Shown here: positions 52,158 to 64,000 of the stretch, one piece after another | Position numbering within the stretch: position 1 is the stretch's first letter | How the letters are laid out: each line of letters opens with the position of its first letter | Assembly: GCF_017876515.1 (NCBI RefSeq) | Contig: NZ_JAGIOC010000001.1 | Location: forward strand, 4,030,001-4,094,000 | Reading direction: 5' to 3' | DNA: 64,000 bases | DNA from: Brachybacterium fresconis | Lineage (GTDB): Bacteria; Actinomycetota; Actinomycetes; Actinomycetales; Dermabacteraceae | Notes under the pieces: generated by a model | What the model saw: the letters and a program-made list of their open reading frames with translations, nothing else | Told to the model about the DNA's origin: nothing | Databases searched by the model: none | Position numbers and translations under genes: made by a program

Positions 52158-52211
52158 GCTGGTGCTGGTGCTGGTGCTGGTGCTGGTGCTGGTGCTGGTG
52201 CTGGTGCTGGT
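52158..52211. repeat. Nine perfect tandem copies of a hexamer GCTGGT
   Basis: Perfect copies run from 52158 to 52211, then one decayed copy GCTGGG. It lies about 20 bp after the tig terminator. Confidence 0.95.
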
Positions 52212-52275
52212 GCTGGGGTCGGAGGACGGTGGGGTGGAGGGCGAGTACCTGCGGCTGCTGCACCGCGCCGTGCTC

Positions 52276-53511: not shown

Positions 53512-53762
53512 GATGTGCGGATCGTTCCTTCCGTTCCCGGCGCGGGAGGCCAGGGACTACCTGCTTGGTGAGCGACCACCGCTGTCAGGGCGATCGTCGT
53601 AGGGGCGATGGGAACCACCGTAGGAGCGCTTCGCCTGCAGGTCTCTGGGCTTGGAAGAGGTCGGCACGGAACTTGACGGGATTTTTGCGAGACCACGGGT
53701 CCTCGTGACCAGAACCAGGTCGAACTTGACGCTCCCCGGGGGAGCCAGGACACATGGGTCAA

Positions 53763-53887
53763 GGTGGCTGAGGTGGCTGAGGTGGCTGAGGTGGCTGAGG
53801 TGGCTGAGGTGGCTGAGGTGGCTGAGGTGGCTGAGGTGGCTGAGGTGGCTGAGGTGGCTGAGGTGGCTGAGGTGGCTGAGGTGGCTG
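53763..53887. repeat. About 13.9 tandem copies of a 9-bp unit GGTGGCTGA
   Basis: Thirteen perfect copies run from 53763 to 53879, then an 8-bp partial copy. They end 114 bp before the clpP1 start. The 9-bp length makes all six frames read as repeated tripeptides. Confidence 0.97.
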
Positions 53888-56971: not shown

Positions 56972-57315
56972 TGGCGCCCGAACGCGAGGCGAACGATCGC
57001 GACGACACCGCCCGGGCCCGCGAGCTGCTGGCCGAGGAGCGTCGCAGCATCGACAACATCGACGCCGCGCTCGTCCACCTTCTCGCCGAGCGCTTCGCAC
57101 ACACCCAGCGCGTCGGCGTCCTCAAGCACGCCCACGGCCTGCCGCCGGCCGACCCGTCCCGGGAACAGGAGCAGATCACGCATCTGCGCTCCCTGGCCGA
57201 CACCGCGGGCCTCGATCCGGTCTTCGCCGAGGCGTTCATGCGCTTCATCGTCACCGAGGTGATCCGCCATCACGAGCGGATCCGTGACGAGGGGTCCGGC
57301 GCCGAGAGCGCCTGA
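56971..57315 (+). CDS. Chorismate mutase (AroQ class)
   Basis: The 114-aa all-helical protein has the AroQ pattern RRSIDNIDAALVHLLAERFAH, then RVGVLKHAHGLPPADPSRE and FMRFIVTEVIRHHERI. These give the Arg and Lys residues that hold chorismate, which it turns to prephenate for Phe/Tyr synthesis. It overlaps the clpX stop by one base (TGATG) and is translated with it. It probably belongs to the secondary AroQ-delta type common in actinobacteria. Confidence 0.85.
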
Positions 57316-57331
57316 CCCCTCGTCCGGCTGG

Positions 57332-57337
57332 TAATCT
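57332..57337 (+). promoter_or_regulatory. -10 hexamer TAATCT for the formate dehydrogenase operon
   Basis: TAATCT ends 7 nt before the ATG at 57345, a leaderless-type arrangement. It is the closest match to TATAAT in the window. Confidence 0.5.
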
Positions 57338-57344
57338 GGATCAC

Positions 57345-60300
57345 ATGGCAGGATTTCAGTTTCTCGAGTGGCCGGTGATCCGGCAGCTGCGCGGCGCGGA
57401 TCCGTCCGGCCGGGGCAGCGCGGTCACCTCGCAGGCGACTCGGAACATCGCTCCCCGCACGCGGGATGCGGACACCGTCGTCCAGAGCGTCTGCCCGTAC
57501 TGCGCCGTCGGGTGCGGGCAGAAGGTCTACGCCAAGGACAACCGGGTCATCCAGATCGAGGGGGACCCGGACTCGCCGATCTCGCGAGGTCGGCTCTGCC
57601 CCAAGGGGGCTGCGAGCGAACAGCTGGTCAACTCCGCGCGCCGCGTCACGACGGTCCGCTACCGCCCTCCGTACTCCGCGGACTGGCAGGATCTCGACCT
57701 CGACACCGCCCTGGACATGATCACCGACCGCTTCCTCGAAGCGCGGCGCAATCACTGGGAGGAGGAGGACGAGGAGGGCCGCCCGCTGCGGCGGGCGATG
57801 GGGATCGCGTCGCTCGGCGGTGCGACCATCGACAACGAGGAGAACTACCTCGCCAAGAAGCTCTTCACCGCAGCCGGTGCCATTCAGATGGAGAATCAGG
57901 CGCGCATTTGACACTCCGCCACGGTCCCCGGTCTGGGGACCTCGTTCGGACGCGGTGGGGCCACCCAGTATCTGCAGGACATGGCCAATGCCGATTGCAT
58001 CGTCATCCAGGGCTCCAACATGGCCGAGGCCCATCCGGTGGGCTACCAGTGGGTCATGGAGGCGCGGTCCCGTGGGGCGCGGGTCATCCACGTCGACCCG
58101 CGGTTCTCGCGCACCAGCGCGAACGCCGACAAGCACCTGCCGATCCGAGCGGGCACGGACATCGTGCTCCTCGGCGCCCTCATCAACTACGTGCTCGCTC
58201 ATGACCTCTGGTTCGAGGATTACGTCAAGGCGTTCACCAACGCCTCCTCGATCCTCGAGGACGACTACGCCGATGCCGAGGACCTCGACGGCCTCTTCTC
58301 CGGGTTCGACCCCGCCACGGGCACCTACGACACCTCCTCGTGGCAGTACGCGGATGCGTCCGAGGAGGGTGAGAGCCGGGCGACGGGCACTCCGACGACC
58401 CACGGTGAGTCCCATGGCGAGTCGCACGGCTCCGGCGGTCCTCAGCTGGGACGCGGCGTGCCTTCGCGGGACGAGAGCCTCCAGGATCCCCAGTGCGTCT
58501 TCCAGATCCTGAAGCGCCACTACGCCCGGTACACCGCGGAGATGGTCGAGGAGGCGTGCGGGATCTCCCGCGCCGACTTCGAGTACCTGGCACGGTCGGT
58601 GACGGAGAACTCCGGGCCGGAGCGCACCACCTGCTTCGCGTATGCCGTGGGCTGGACCCAGCACGTCGGCGGCGCGCAGTTCATCCGGGCCGCCGGGGTG
58701 CTGCAGCTGCTGCTCGGGAACATGGGCCGCCCGGGCGGGGGGATCATGGCGCTGCGGGGCCACGCCACGATCCAGGGCTCGACCGATATCCCGACCCTGT
58801 TCAACCTGCTGCCCGGATACCTGCCGATGCCCAAGGTCGGAGCCCATGATTCGTTCCGGGATTATGTCGACTCGATCGGTACGAAGACCCAGAAGGGCTT
58901 CTGGGCGGACTCCGAATCGTATGCGGTGAATCTGCTGAAGGCGTGGTGGGGCGATGCGGCGACCGCGGAGAACGACTGGGCGTTCGACAACCTGCCCCGA
59001 CTGACCGGCGCCCACGGCACGTACCAGACCACGATGCGGATGCTCGAGGACGGCGTCGACGGGTACTTCCTGCTGGGACAGAACCCCGCCGTGGGCTCCG
59101 CCAACGGTCGCCTCCAGCGCCTGGGCATGTCGCATCTGAAATGGATGGTCGTGCGTGACTTCTCCATGATCGAATCGGCCACCTGGTGGAAGGAGGGGCC
59201 GGAGATCGAATCGGGCGAGCTGAGGACCGAGGACATCGCCACCGAGATGTTCTTCCTGCCCGCCGCGAACCACACGGAGAAGGCCGGCTCGTTCACCCAG
59301 ACACAGCGCCTGGTGCAGTGGAGGGAGCGGGCCGTCACCCCGCCCGGAGATTGCACGAGCGAGCTGACGTTCATGCACGAGCTCGGTCAGCGCATCCGGT
59401 CGCGGCTGAAGGATTCGCAGGATCCGCGTGACCGCCCGCTGCTGGACCTCACATGGGACTATCCGACCGATGAGCACGGTGAACCGGACCCGGAAGCGGT
59501 GCTCAAGGAGATCAACGGCTACCACGTCGGCGGGGAGAAGGACGGCACGCCTCTGTCCTCGTACACGGAGATGACGGCCGACGGCACCACCGCCGGCGGC
59601 TGCTGGATCTACGCCGGCGTGTACGCGGACGGGGTCAACCAGGCGGCCCGCCGCAAGCCCGGGAGCGAACAGGACAGCACGGCCGCCGAATGGGCGTGGG
59701 CGTGGCCGGCCAACCGCCGGATCCTCTACAACCGCGCCTCCGCCGACGCCGACGGCAAGCCCTGGAGCGAACGCAAGAGATATGTCTGGTGGGACGAAGA
59801 CACCGAGCAGTGGACCGGGAAGGATGTCCCCGACTTCCCGCCGGACAAGCATCCCCACGACAGCGGGGACGCCGAGAAGGGCGGCTCCGCGGCTCTCGCC
59901 GGCAACGATGCGTTCGTCATGCAGGCCGACGGGCGCGGCTGGCTGTTCGCGCCCTCGGGCATGGTGGACGGCCCGCTGCCCACGCACTACGAGGCGGTCG
60001 AGTCGGCGATCCCCAACCCGCTGTACGCCCAGCAGGCGAACCCCACGCAGAAGACGATCGCGGACAGCAGCAACATGAACGCACCGGGCATCACCGGAAC
60101 GGCGGCCCAAGGCGAGGTATATCCGTACGTGTTCACCACCTACCGCCTCACGGAGCATCACACCGCCGGCGGGATGAGTCGCTTCCTGCCGTACCTCGCC
60201 GAGCTGCAGCCCGAACTGTTCTGCGAGGTCTCCCCGGAGCTCGCGGACGAGGTCGGGCTGGCGCCGTACGGCTGGGCGACCGTGATCTCCGCCCGGTCGG

Positions 60301-60704
60301 CGATCGAGGCGCGCGTGCTGATCACCCGTCGCATGTCTCCGTTGCGCGCGGCCGGCCGCACGGTGCACCAGATCGGGATCCCGTACCACTGGGCACAGGG
60401 CAGCGAGGCGGTGGTCTCGGGTGACGCGGTCAACGACCTGGTCGGGATGAACCTCGACGCCAACACGCAGATCCAGAACTCGAAGGTCGTCGCCTGCGCG
60501 CTGCGACCCGGCCGTCGTCCGCGCGGACCGGCGCTGCGCGATCTGGTGGCAGACTTCCAGCGTCGGGCGGGAATCAGTCCGACGACGGGCGACGAAGCGA
60601 TCGCACCCGCCGTTCACCCCCCGGAAGCTCGATCCGAGGGCACCCCTGGCCAGGACGATGACGCGGGCCGCGGGGCCGAGCGCACCACGCGAGAGGAGCA
60701 CTGA
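57345..60704 (+). CDS. fdhA: Formate dehydrogenase alpha subunit, selenoprotein (Sec189 at TGA 57909-57911)
   Basis: The 1119-aa molybdopterin-guanine-dinucleotide enzyme oxidises formate. An N-terminal [4Fe-4S] binds Cys50, Cys53, Cys57 and Cys85 (CPYCAVGC, RLCPKG). TGA at 57909-57911 falls inside MENQARI-U-HSATVPG, aligned to the NQARV-U-HGPTV of E. coli FdnG, where Sec196 coordinates molybdenum. After it the frame carries GRGGATQYLQDMANAD and AEAHPVGYQWVMEARSRGAR, then GWTQHVGGAQFIRAAGVLQL, ending in the cofactor domain (TTYRLTEHHTAGGMSR). It lacks a twin-Arg signal, so the enzyme is cytoplasm-facing. It has an extra Gly/Ser/His-rich stretch near residues 345-375. Confidence 0.96.
57912..57950 (+). 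promoter_or_regulatory. Bacterial SECIS element
   Basis: GGTCCCC (57923-57929) and GGGGACC (57935-57941) form a perfect 7-bp stem with loop GGTCT. The loop begins 18 nt after the TGA, as in the E. coli fdhF element recalled from knowledge, and the GGTCT loop is the SelB-recognised sequence. The bulged U of E. coli is absent. Confidence 0.85.
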
Positions 60705-61738
60705 TGGGATCGATGATCGAATCCACAGGACGTCGGGGCACCGATGCCGGGTTGGAGCACGAGCATTCGCGCAAGGGCTTCTTCACCGACACCTCGATCT
60801 GTATCGGATGCAAGGCCTGCGAGGTGGCGTGCAAGGAGTGGAACCGCAACCCCGCCGACGGGGATCTGGAACTGCTCGGGTCGTCCTTCGACAACACCGG
60901 GGAGCTGGGTGCGAACACGTGGCGTCACGTCGCATTCGTCGAGCAGGAATCCGAGCGCATCGAGGAGGCCCGGGAATCGGGCCGACGCCTCGTCAGCTTG
61001 GGCATGCCCACCGTGGGCCCTCGCTCCGGCGGCCCCCGGCCCGGTGCGCCGTCCGTTCCCGGCGGTCGGCCCGGGGAGGACCTCAGCGACGAGGACACCG
61101 CCCCACCGGACACCCCTGAGTTCCGGTGGCTGATGTCCTCGGACGTCTGCAAGCACTGCACCAACGCCGGGTGCCTGGACGTGTGCCCGACCGGAGCGCT
61201 GTACCGCACGGAGTTCGGCAGCGTCGTCGTGCAGCAGGACATCTGCAACGGGTGCGGGACCTGTGTGGGCGGGTGCCCGTTCGGCGTGATCGAGCGCCGC
61301 GACGACGGCACCATCTCCCCGCGGTCCTCCAGCGAGGAGACCGAGCAGGACGTCCCCGAGCTCGGCACCGCCCACAAGTGCACCCTCTGCCATGACCGGC
61401 TGGTCGACGGCGAGACGCCCGCCTGCGCTCAGACCTGCCCGACCACCTCGATCAAGTTCGGTGATCACGAGGACATGGTCGAGTCCGCCGAGGAGCGGGT
61501 GCAGCAGCTGCACACTCAGGGCATGACCGAAGCACGTCTCTACGGCGCCAATGCGAACGACGGTGTGGGCGGCATCGGATCGGTGTTCCTGCTGCTCGAC
61601 GAGCCCGAGGTCTATGGCCTGCCGCCCGACCCCCAGGTGCCCACGAAGGCGCTGCCGCAGATGTACCGCACGGCCGGGGTCGCCGCCCTCGGGATGATCA
61701 CCGCGACCGCTCTCGCATTCCTCGGAGGGCGCCGGTGA
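60704..61738 (+). CDS. fdhB: Formate dehydrogenase iron-sulfur beta subunit
   Basis: The 344-aa electron-transfer subunit has four Cys motifs (16 cysteines): CIGCKACEVAC (33-43), CKHCTNAGCLDVCPTGA, CNGCGTCVGGCPFG and CTLCHDRL with CAQTCPTTSI. These bind four [4Fe-4S] clusters in a ferredoxin-like order, passing electrons from FdhA. A Ser/Gly/Pro-rich insertion lies at about 105-145. The C-terminus (VAALGMITATALAFLGG) is a single membrane helix that anchors it. The ATG overlaps the fdhA stop by one base (TGATG). Confidence 0.93.
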   Translation: MGSMIESTGRRGTDAGLEHEHSRKGFFTDTSICIGCKACEVACKEWNRNPADGDLELLGSSFDNTGELGANTWRHVAFVEQESERIEEARESGRRLVSLGMPTVGPRSGGPRPGAPSVPGGRPGEDLSDEDTAPPDTPEFRWLMSSDVCKHCTNAGCLDVCPTGALYRTEFGSVVVQQDICNGCGTCVGGCPFGVIERRDDGTISPRSSSEETEQDVPELGTAHKCTLCHDRLVDGETPACAQTCPTTSIKFGDHEDMVESAEERVQQLHTQGMTEARLYGANANDGVGGIGSVFLLLDEPEVYGLPPDPQVPTKALPQMYRTAGVAALGMITATALAFLGGRR

Positions 61739-62964
61739 CGCACGCAGCGCATTCCGAGTACGACGCGTACCGCCCCCCGGAGCCGCCACGGCGGAAGCGT
61801 CGACACGACGGGCGACCCCGTCGGCGGTCCGGATCGGCCGGCGGAGGCGACGGCTCGCGCGAGACGCCCATGGTCGAGGACATCGAGTTCAGCTCCTACT
61901 ACGGGCGCTCCGTGGTCAAGGCACCGCCGTGGGAGTGGCCGATCGGGCTGTACCTCTTCGTGGGCGGCCTCGCGGGCGGCTCCGCTCTGCTCGGCGCAGG
62001 CGGGGACCTCACCGGACGGCCCCGCCTGCGACGCAATGCACGGTTGACCGCGCTCGGCGCGGTCGGCGTCGGCCTCCCGGCGCTGATCCTCGACCTAGGA
62101 CGCCCGGAGCGCTTCCTGCACATGCTGCGCGTGTTCAAACCGACGTCGCCGATGAGCGTCGGCACGTGGCTGCTGACGGCATTCGGCACGTCCGCCGGGT
62201 TCGCCGTGGCCGGAGAGCTGGATCGCATGACCGGCGAGCGCCTGCAGCTGGGCCGTCTGCGACGCCTCCTGCGTGCGGCCGAGGGCGCCGGAGGCGCGAC
62301 AGCGGCGGTGCTCGGCGCGCCGCTGGCGGCCTACACGGCCGTGCTGCTCGGCGACACCGCCGTCCCGACCTGGGCGGCCTCCCGCAAGGGCTTGGCCTAC
62401 GTCTTCGTCTCCTCGGCGGGTATCGCCGCCGGTGGGGCCGCACTGGTGACGACCTCCACGCAGGAGTCCGGACCGGCTCGGAGCCTGGCCGTGCTCGGCG
62501 TCGTGGGGGACGTGATCGGGATGCGCAGCATGAAGAGGCAGATGCACCCGCTGGAGTCCGAACCGCTCGAGACAGGCGGCGCGGGGCGGAAGCTCCGGCT
62601 GGCCGAGGGTCTCGCGATCGCGGGCGGTCTCGGAGCGCTGCTGGGCGGACGCCATCGCGGGATCGCGGTCCTCAGCGGGCTCGCGCTCGCCGGCGCCTCG
62701 GCGCTCACCCGCTTCGGTGTGCTGGAGGCCGGTCTGGAATCAGTCAAGGATCCGCGCCGCGTCATCGAGCCGCAGCGTGAGCGGCTCGCTCAGCGCCGCG
62801 CGGCCGGTGTCACCGATGACTCGATCACCACCGGCCCTCGTCCTGCGGGCCCCGGGCCCGTGGACCCCGAGCAGACCGGGCCGGGCCCCGAACGGCCCGA
62901 GGCCACCGAGCCCGGCTCGCTGGGCACGGGAGCCCCCGAAGGACCGGAGAACAGCGGGCGCTGA
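61735..62964 (+). CDS. NrfD/PsrC-type membrane subunit of formate dehydrogenase
   Basis: The 409-aa protein has a charged N-terminus (PRRKRRHDGRPRRRSG). Eight or so hydrophobic helices begin at WPIGLYLFVGGLAGGSALLG. The NrfD/PsrC family (polysulfide reductase NrfD) carries quinone-linked electrons in the membrane, replacing the cytochrome b of E. coli FDH-N. LGRPERFLHMLRVFKPTSPMS is a family feature. The last 80 residues are acidic/Pro-rich and likely cytoplasmic. The GTG start overlaps the fdhB stop by 4 nt (GTGA). Confidence 0.87.
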   Translation: MTHAAHSEYDAYRPPEPPRRKRRHDGRPRRRSGSAGGGDGSRETPMVEDIEFSSYYGRSVVKAPPWEWPIGLYLFVGGLAGGSALLGAGGDLTGRPRLRRNARLTALGAVGVGLPALILDLGRPERFLHMLRVFKPTSPMSVGTWLLTAFGTSAGFAVAGELDRMTGERLQLGRLRRLLRAAEGAGGATAAVLGAPLAAYTAVLLGDTAVPTWAASRKGLAYVFVSSAGIAAGGAALVTTSTQESGPARSLAVLGVVGDVIGMRSMKRQMHPLESEPLETGGAGRKLRLAEGLAIAGGLGALLGGRHRGIAVLSGLALAGASALTRFGVLEAGLESVKDPRRVIEPQRERLAQRRAAGVTDDSITTGPRPAGPGPVDPEQTGPGPERPEATEPGSLGTGAPEGPENSGR

Positions 62965-63013
62965 CCGCGGCGGCACTGCCCGTGGTGAGCACCCTGCGCG
63001 GCGGGCGCATCGC

Positions 63014-63042
63014 GATCCGGCCGTCGCGGCGGGGCCGGGATC
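63014..63042. terminator. Hairpin between convergent fdh operon and selD
   Basis: GATCC-GGCC (63014-63022) pairs with the complementary GGCC-GGGATC (63033-63042) across one bulge. It overlaps the selD stop codon. Confidence 0.4.
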
Positions 63043-64000
63043 AGCGCACCTCGAGCCCCGAACCCTCGACGATCTCGCCGATGACCGGATGGCCGGGCAC
63101 CTCGCCGACCACCAGCAGACCGCCGGAGGTCTGCGCGTCGGCCAGCAGCAGCAGGTCGTCCTCGGTGATGCCGGGCCCGGTCCGCAGGTGGTCGCGGACC
63201 CAGTCGAGGTTCCGTCGGGTGCCGCCGGAGACATAGCCGTCCCGCAGCGCCTCGGCGGCTCCGTCGATCAGCGGCACCGCGGAGCGGTCCACGACCGCTG
63301 CGACCCCGGAGGCCCGGGTCATCTTGTGCAGATGGCCCAGCAGCCCGAAGCCCGTCACGTCGGTCGCGGCCCGGGCCCCGGCGTCCAGGGCGGCCCGGGC
63401 CGCATCCCGGTTCAGGGTGGTCATGGTCTCGATGGCGGCCGCGGAGACCTCGGCGGTGGACTTCATCCGGTTGTTCAGCAGCCCGACGCCGAGCGGTTTG
63501 GTCAGCGTCAGCGGCAGGCCGGGGCGCGCGGCGTCGTTGCGCAGCAGGCGGTCCGGGTCGGCGGTGCCGGTGACGGCCATGCCGTACTTGGGTTCCGGGT
63601 CGTCCACGGAGTGACCGCCGATCACGGGCACGCCCGCCTCCTGGGCGATCGCGAGCCCGCCGGCGAGGACCTCGCGCAGCAGCTCCAGCGGCAGCACGCC
63701 GCGCGGCCAGCCCACCAGGTTGATCGCCACCACCGGGTCCCCGCCCATCGCGTAGATGTCCGAGAGCGCGTTGGCGGCGGCGATGCGCCCCCAGTCGTAG
63801 GCGTCATCCACCACGGGGGTGAAGAAGTCCGCCGTCGACAGCACGGCGGTGCCGCCCGCGATCCGCACCGCGGCGGCGTCGTCCCCGTCGTCGAGCCCCA
63901 CGATCACCTGCTCGTACTGCTGGCCGGCGAGGGCACCGACCACCTCCTCGAGCTCGCCCGGCGGGATCTTGGAGGCGCAGCCGCCGCCGTGGGCCATCGT
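63041..64000 (-). CDS. selD: Selenide, water dikinase (selenophosphate synthase), 5' end beyond the window
   Basis: The 320 visible codons make selenophosphate, the selenium donor for selenocysteine and selenouridine synthesis. MAHGGGCASKIPPG holds the catalytic Cys and Lys (the E. coli Cys17/Lys20 pair). LDDGDDAAA and DFFTPVVDDAYDWGRIAAAN are ATP/metal motifs, and GGHSVDDPEPKYGMAVTG follows. The C-terminal AIRS half has DVTGFGLLGHLHKM. An ATG at 63997 exists, but relatives usually carry about ten more residues, so the true start probably lies off the end. It faces the fdh operon. Confidence 0.93.
   Translation of the reverse strand, partial: TMAHGGGCASKIPPGELEEVVGALAGQQYEQVIVGLDDGDDAAAVRIAGGTAVLSTADFFTPVVDDAYDWGRIAAANALSDIYAMGGDPVVAINLVGWPRGVLPLELLREVLAGGLAIAQEAGVPVIGGHSVDDPEPKYGMAVTGTADPDRLLRNDAARPGLPLTLTKPLGVGLLNNRMKSTAEVSAAAIETMTTLNRDAARAALDAGARAATDVTGFGLLGHLHKMTRASGVAAVVDRSAVPLIDGAAEALRDGYVSGGTRRNLDWVRDHLRTGPGITEDDLLLLADAQTSGGLLVVGEVPGHPVIGEIVEGSGLEVR

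Follow-up and report, generated by a model that had tools for sequence, protein, structure and literature searches.

The formate dehydrogenase alpha subunit heads a survey of bacterial selenoproteins, with 822 organisms (PMC5029168). In Actinomycetospora chiangmaiensis DSM 45062, selenium-dependent removal of formate is described for the enzyme FDH1 (FdhA1, FdhB1, FdhC1), and the proteins FdhA1, SelA, SelB and SelD were detected, the FDH1 proteins at low abundance (PMC7176365). Corynebacterium aurimucosum is described with a UGA-containing formate dehydrogenase (fdnG/fdxH) beside selD, selA, selB and selC (PMC2830990). In the Geodermatophilaceae, the selenocysteine (Sec) codon of the formate dehydrogenase is UAG and the tRNA-Sec has the anticodon CUA (PMC5330540, citing its ref. 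56). The name Brachybacterium is absent from the main text of PMC5029168 and of PMC1794560, and a literature search for Brachybacterium together with selenocysteine returned only unrelated-looking titles.

We analysed a window of 64,000 nucleotides from Brachybacterium fresconis (C1:4030001-4094000). Its fdhA gene is orthologous to the Sec formate dehydrogenase gene of actinobacteria that these sources describe in C. aurimucosum and Actinomycetospora. As is reported for FDH1, the predicted product belongs to a membrane-bound Sec enzyme with alpha, beta and gamma subunits and is encoded in a cluster with selA and selB; the alpha subunit of FDH1 has 1078 residues (PMC7176365). According to the same source, A. 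chiangmaiensis has three Sec formate dehydrogenases and its selD is listed outside the FDH1 cluster, whereas here one copy scored over the cut-off of the family profile NF041513 and selD lies inside the cluster. The arrangement beside selD, selA, selB and selC is also that of C. aurimucosum, which additionally has a separate thiol formate dehydrogenase (PMC2830990). The fdhA gene clearly exemplifies a type of gene that is already known from its bacterial group, and as such it is not surprising.

The fdhA gene and its operon

When open reading frames were called with translation table 11, fdhA appeared as two ORFs, one of 188 amino acids and a second of 907 amino acids starting at the next ATG, as the preliminary description had expected of plain gene calling. 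When the TGA was read as Sec, one frame was obtained that consists of 188 residues, U189, 930 further residues and a terminal TGA (Table 1). The joined product matched NCBIfam NF041513 (formate_DH_Act) with 1879.8 bits at a curated cut-off of 1400 and over profile positions 3-1067 of 1067, which makes it a full-length member of the actinobacterial formate dehydrogenases and bears out the claim of a single gene split by an in-frame TGA. In a search of the B. fresconis genome with the NF041513 profile only, one other match was found, with 31.4 bits and under the cut-off.

Among the chains of the Protein Data Bank, the product matched 1kqf_A (654.1 bits) and 1h0h_A (653.9 bits) best. In the printed alignments with both chains, residue 189 stood opposite an X. 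We take this X to be selenocysteine in E. coli FDH-N (1kqf_A) as well as in 1h0h_A. The joined product therefore has its Sec189 at the active-site position, where the preliminary description had placed it. A bacterial selenoprotein gene is expected to carry its in-frame UGA where a redox residue is conserved and to show homology before and after it, as is seen here.

The preliminary description had also noted full similarity to the FDH-N alpha subunit, and this was upheld in part. The product scored 894.9 bits against TIGR01553 (FDH-N alpha), over the cut-off of 814.2, and is homologous to the E. coli subunit FdnG over most of the chain with the Sec position aligned. However, its best family is NF041513. 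FDH-N of E. coli is periplasmic, carries a Tat signal and is anchored by a cytochrome b, whereas here no Tat motif was detected by a simple regular expression in residues 1-188 and the anchor is of the NrfD type. The score thus agrees with TIGR01553, but the Tat and cytochrome b gamma features of the E. coli enzyme were not observed. We conclude that fdhA encodes a relative of FDH-N and not an FDH-N strictly of the E. coli type.

The start of fdhB overlaps the stop of fdhA by 1 base, and the gene for the NrfD-type subunit overlaps fdhB by four bases. Against its best equivalog, TIGR01582, FdhB scored 165 bits, below the cut-off of 334.7. In a simple hydropathy scan, FdhB had a single hydrophobic segment, at its C-terminal end, and the NrfD-type protein had five. 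Elsewhere in the window, two perfect arrays were observed: 14 copies of the 9-mer AGGTGGCTG at 53762-53887, and 9.8 copies of the 6-mer GCTGGT at 52158-52216. The latter closely follows an ORF that resembles trigger factor by eye and has a tail rich in Lys and Ala.

Table 1. Features of the fdhA locus, with positions in the window
Feature	Position	Strand	Evidence
-10-like element TAATCT, 7 bases upstream of the fdhA ATG	57332..57337	+	TANNNT conservation
fdhA, predicted Sec-containing formate dehydrogenase alpha subunit, 1119 residues	57345..60704	+	translation, profile and PDB matches
Predicted Sec189 codon, in-frame TGA, Mo-ligand position	57909..57911	+	alignment to 1kqf_A and 1h0h_A
Predicted SECIS hairpin, 7-bp stem GGUCCCC/GGGGACC, loop GGUCU	57923..57941	+	comparative conservation, covariation, codon bias
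fdhB, beta subunit, 4Fe-4S ferredoxin-type	60704..61738	+	Fer4-type domains over cut-off
NrfD-type membrane subunit	61735..62964	+	PF03916, 61.1 bits (cut-off 25.8)
selD, selenophosphate synthetase	63041..64000, 5' end 93 bases past the window (L009:8041-9093)	-	TIGR00476

A hairpin directly after the TGA codon

Counting the T of the TGA as +1, the stem is formed by +15 to +21 with +27 to +33 and the loop by +22 to +26, so that the hairpin begins 14 bases after the T. Its conservation was analysed in 57-base segments bearing the stop codon. The family and named relatives supplied 47 distinct segments; 36 of these were used for the covariation test, and 96.8% of their cells were paired. The covariation score of 0.245 in these 36 segments was matched in none of 500 shuffles, and registers slid along the alignment gave at most 0.109. 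Three pairs were changed on both sides, which was matched in 3 of 500 shuffles, and the number of further pair types was matched in 24 of 500; the shuffles ignore the relatedness of the sequences. A recount was made with 70 distinct stop-bearing segments, drawn from all 47 family and named-relative segments and 25 segments of the class. Seven of the seven pairs were present in 52 segments and six of seven in 18, and the loop matched RGTYT in all 70.

The strongest pair, +18/+30, couples two synonymous third positions of a Val and a Gly codon. It was a standard pair in 69 of the 70 segments, the exception being G-G in one (L096). In 61 homologues that were distinct over 900 bases, the pair was T-A in 37, C-G in 14, T-G in 6, G-T in 3 and G-C in 1, and was never unpaired. 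A codon bias was found as well. At +22 the codon was GGT in 34 of the 61 and AGT in the remaining 27, with nothing else observed, though GGT makes up 12% of the Gly codons and AGT 2% of the Ser codons in these genes. Similarly, the codon at +16 was GTT in 43 of the 61, though GTT accounts for 2% of the Val codons.

The stem was not kept in homologues with cysteine at the site. Four Cys homologues of the class (TGC or TGT) retained 3-5 of the 7 pairs and a distant TGC homologue (L051) retained 2, although the loop letters GGTCT were still present in two of the four with their broken stems. Taken together, the hairpin behaves as a SECIS that is real by comparison, directly after the UGA. The element that the preliminary description had suspected after the TGA is thus supported by covariation, by codon bias and by 6-7 pairs in 70 of 70 stop-bearing segments, against 2-5 pairs in 5 of 5 Cys segments.

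When a hairpin model (R1) was run over every position of the window from 57000 to 64000, it scored 82.9 bits at the Sec codon and at most 10.8 bits elsewhere, with nothing at the terminal TGA of fdhA. The Rfam family SECIS_3 matched at 57906-57964 with 29 bits (E 1.1e-4), below its gathering score of 63. Folding of single sequences was no better than that of shuffled ones (z -0.37, 0.13 and -0.09). In the whole B. fresconis genome, R1 found the fdhA site with E 6.3e-14 and two weak matches with E 0.39 and 3.4; 150 of 10884 first-look candidates were scored, and divergent SECIS elements would escape this search. The match with E 0.39 (L082) starts at TGT instead of TGA and was rejected as a further SECIS.

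Selenium genes adjoining fdhA

The only match in the B. fresconis genome over the Rfam cut-off for tRNA-Sec (81.5 bits) is at C1:4094153-4094243, 153 bases beyond the right end of the window. ARAGORN called it as tRNA-SeC with the anticodon TCA. The selD gene straddles this end of the window, and tRNA-Sec, selA and selB all follow within 3.5 kb past it. Whole selD scored 382.5 bits against TIGR00476 (cut-off 125); it has no in-frame stop and, by eye, a cysteine at the usual Sec/Cys place. The selA gene (L009:9276-10679) matched TIGR00474 with 401 bits and selB (L009:10676-12466) matched TIGR00475 with 252 bits, both over the curated cut-offs. An FdhD-family gene is present elsewhere in the genome. 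The preliminary description had made its reading depend on selA, selB and selC, and all three were found adjacent to fdhA, with selD in addition.

Distribution in the family and the class

Of the 47 genomes of the family, 42 have a gene that scores over the NF041513 cut-off. All 42 genes contain an internal TGA, a single one in 41 genomes and two in the remaining genome, G003. The site codon, read by tblastn mapping, was obtained directly in 30 of the 42 (29 loci and the window) and was TGA in all 30. In G003 (C1:2854725-2857843), the fdhA match is split between frames with the extra TGA downstream, which is either a damaged copy or an assembly error. tRNA-Sec was over the cut-off in 40 of the 47 genomes and in none of the five without fdhA. 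In the class sample, 34 of 118 genomes had an fdhA match at E 1e-100. Of these matches, 29 had an internal TGA (the site was read directly in 25 and in the B. fresconis genome), four had Cys, and one, in G120, lay in two pieces without a stop, its site codon not being read. The statement of the preliminary description that selenoproteins are patchy among Actinobacteria therefore holds at the level of the class, where 29 of 118 genomes have the internal-TGA form, but not in the organism's own family, with 42 of 47.

At E 1e-9, tRNA-Sec was found in 27 of the 29 class genomes with the TGA form; it was missing in G068 (93% complete) and G104 (84%). Two family genomes, G026 and G032 (88% and 84% complete), likewise have a TGA-form fdhA and no tRNA-Sec over the cut-off. 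We interpret these four cases as probably due to incomplete assembly. All four Cys genomes of the class and G120 had no tRNA-Sec at E 1e-9. The link between fdhA and tRNA-Sec is not exclusive, because 10 of the 37 class genomes with tRNA-Sec had no fdhA at E 1e-100. Six of these 10 tRNA-Sec matches scored only 53.8-55.2 bits, and they are less secure since the family also matches other tRNAs: in G164, a second match over the cut-off (49.7 bits, L122) resembles tRNA-Ser (TGA) by eye. The genome-wide tRNA searches scored part of the first-look candidates.

Among named relatives, the best match to fdhA came from B. alimentarium, with 88% identity over the best segment. In 69 loci, with some genomes counted twice, the site codon was TGA in 57, TAG in 11 and TGC in one. 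The gene and hairpin of the Geodermatophilaceae are orthologous to fdhA (61-62% identical in the best segment). The Sec codon was TAG in 11 of 11 loci of this type, compared to TGA here, and all six such genomes that were searched had, by eye, the tRNA-Sec anticodon CTA, compared to TCA here. The TAG loci, titled Blastococcus, Modestobacter, Goekera and Klenkia, include L025:10538, L026:10541, L027:10538, L029:10538, L034:10538, L036:10538 and five more. An actinobacterial-type formate dehydrogenase, 53% identical and with TGA at the site, was also observed on a contig titled as an Acidobacteriaceae MAG (L041:10568), and a tRNA-Sec with TCA is located elsewhere in that assembly. A transfer or a binning error is possible in this case.

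Alternative readings of the TGA codon

The two ORFs given by table 11 would also be obtained if the TGA were a sequencing error or a nonsense mutation that marks a formate dehydrogenase pseudogene, and the damaged-looking copy in G003 indicates that the family is not free of decay or error. However, a chance stop would hardly be found at the same site in all 30 family homologues that were read, nor an internal TGA in all 42 genes. It would also not be followed by a covarying SECIS, in a gene that adjoins the complete Sec machinery and whose remaining frame is intact over the model positions 3-1067. The preliminary description had held a pseudogene or an error to be unlikely, and with these results we regard either as practically negligible.

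Programmed readthrough or a UGA suppressor could insert another amino acid, for example Trp or Cys, and the charging of tRNA-Sec is predicted here from the genes. Against this stand the genes for tRNA-Sec (TCA), SelA, SelB and SelD, and the occurrence of Cys at the site in the four class genomes read that have no tRNA-Sec. All 70 stop-bearing segments retained the hairpin stem and none of the 5 Cys segments did, and residue 189 is aligned with the X, presumably Sec, of the solved enzymes. We consider insertion of another residue very improbable. On conservation, the SECIS and the sel genes, pseudogene, sequencing error and non-Sec suppression were all rejected. From the sequence comparisons, it is very probable that the internal stop of fdhA functions as a selenocysteine codon and that the enzyme oxidises formate.

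Proposed function

The locus almost certainly encodes a membrane-associated bis-MGD formate dehydrogenase with Sec189 as a metal ligand and a UGA that is decoded via SelB and the hairpin. The fdhA product would be the catalytic subunit and bind molybdenum, or tungsten, in the bis-MGD form. SelA would convert the seryl-tRNA-Sec (UCA) with selenophosphate provided by SelD. SelB would then bring the Sec-tRNA to the ribosome and recognise the hairpin, which lies 14 bases downstream of the first base of the UGA. UGA 189 would be read as Sec and the terminal UGA, which has no match to the hairpin model, would end translation. Electrons from formate would pass over the Fe4S4 cluster of the alpha subunit to the ferredoxin-type beta subunit and through the NrfD-type membrane subunit into the quinone pool. 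Since no Tat motif was found, the enzyme is predicted to reside on the cytoplasmic side.

The region upstream of fdhA

Among 47 distinct upstream regions, 46 had the motif TANNNT at -12 to -14, compared to 0.09 expected from the local background. These are the regions of homologues with the N-terminus aligned from residue 4 or before, and their start codons were picked by alignment. When distant homologues with an uncertain start were included, it was present in 50 of 86 regions. With a conserved -10 element at this distance from the start codon, the fdhA mRNA is probably leaderless in the closer relatives. A wider proposal, to which we give about even chances, is that Brachybacterium, Gordonia and some neighbours have a leaderless selenoprotein mRNA and a cytoplasm-facing enzyme that feeds quinone via an NrfD-type anchor, unlike the periplasmic FDH-N.

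Significance

The results open nothing new on selenocysteine itself. They correct the annotation, as plain ORF calling splits fdhA in two, and they give a clean comparative case with UGA-Sec, UAG-Sec and Cys forms in one gene family. Among the homologues read, the hairpin stem was retained in the Sec forms only. In B. fresconis, the formate dehydrogenase operon, selD, selC, selA and selB form a compact selenium cluster. If the mRNA is indeed leaderless, the ribosomes that recode UGA 189 would start without a Shine-Dalgarno sequence.
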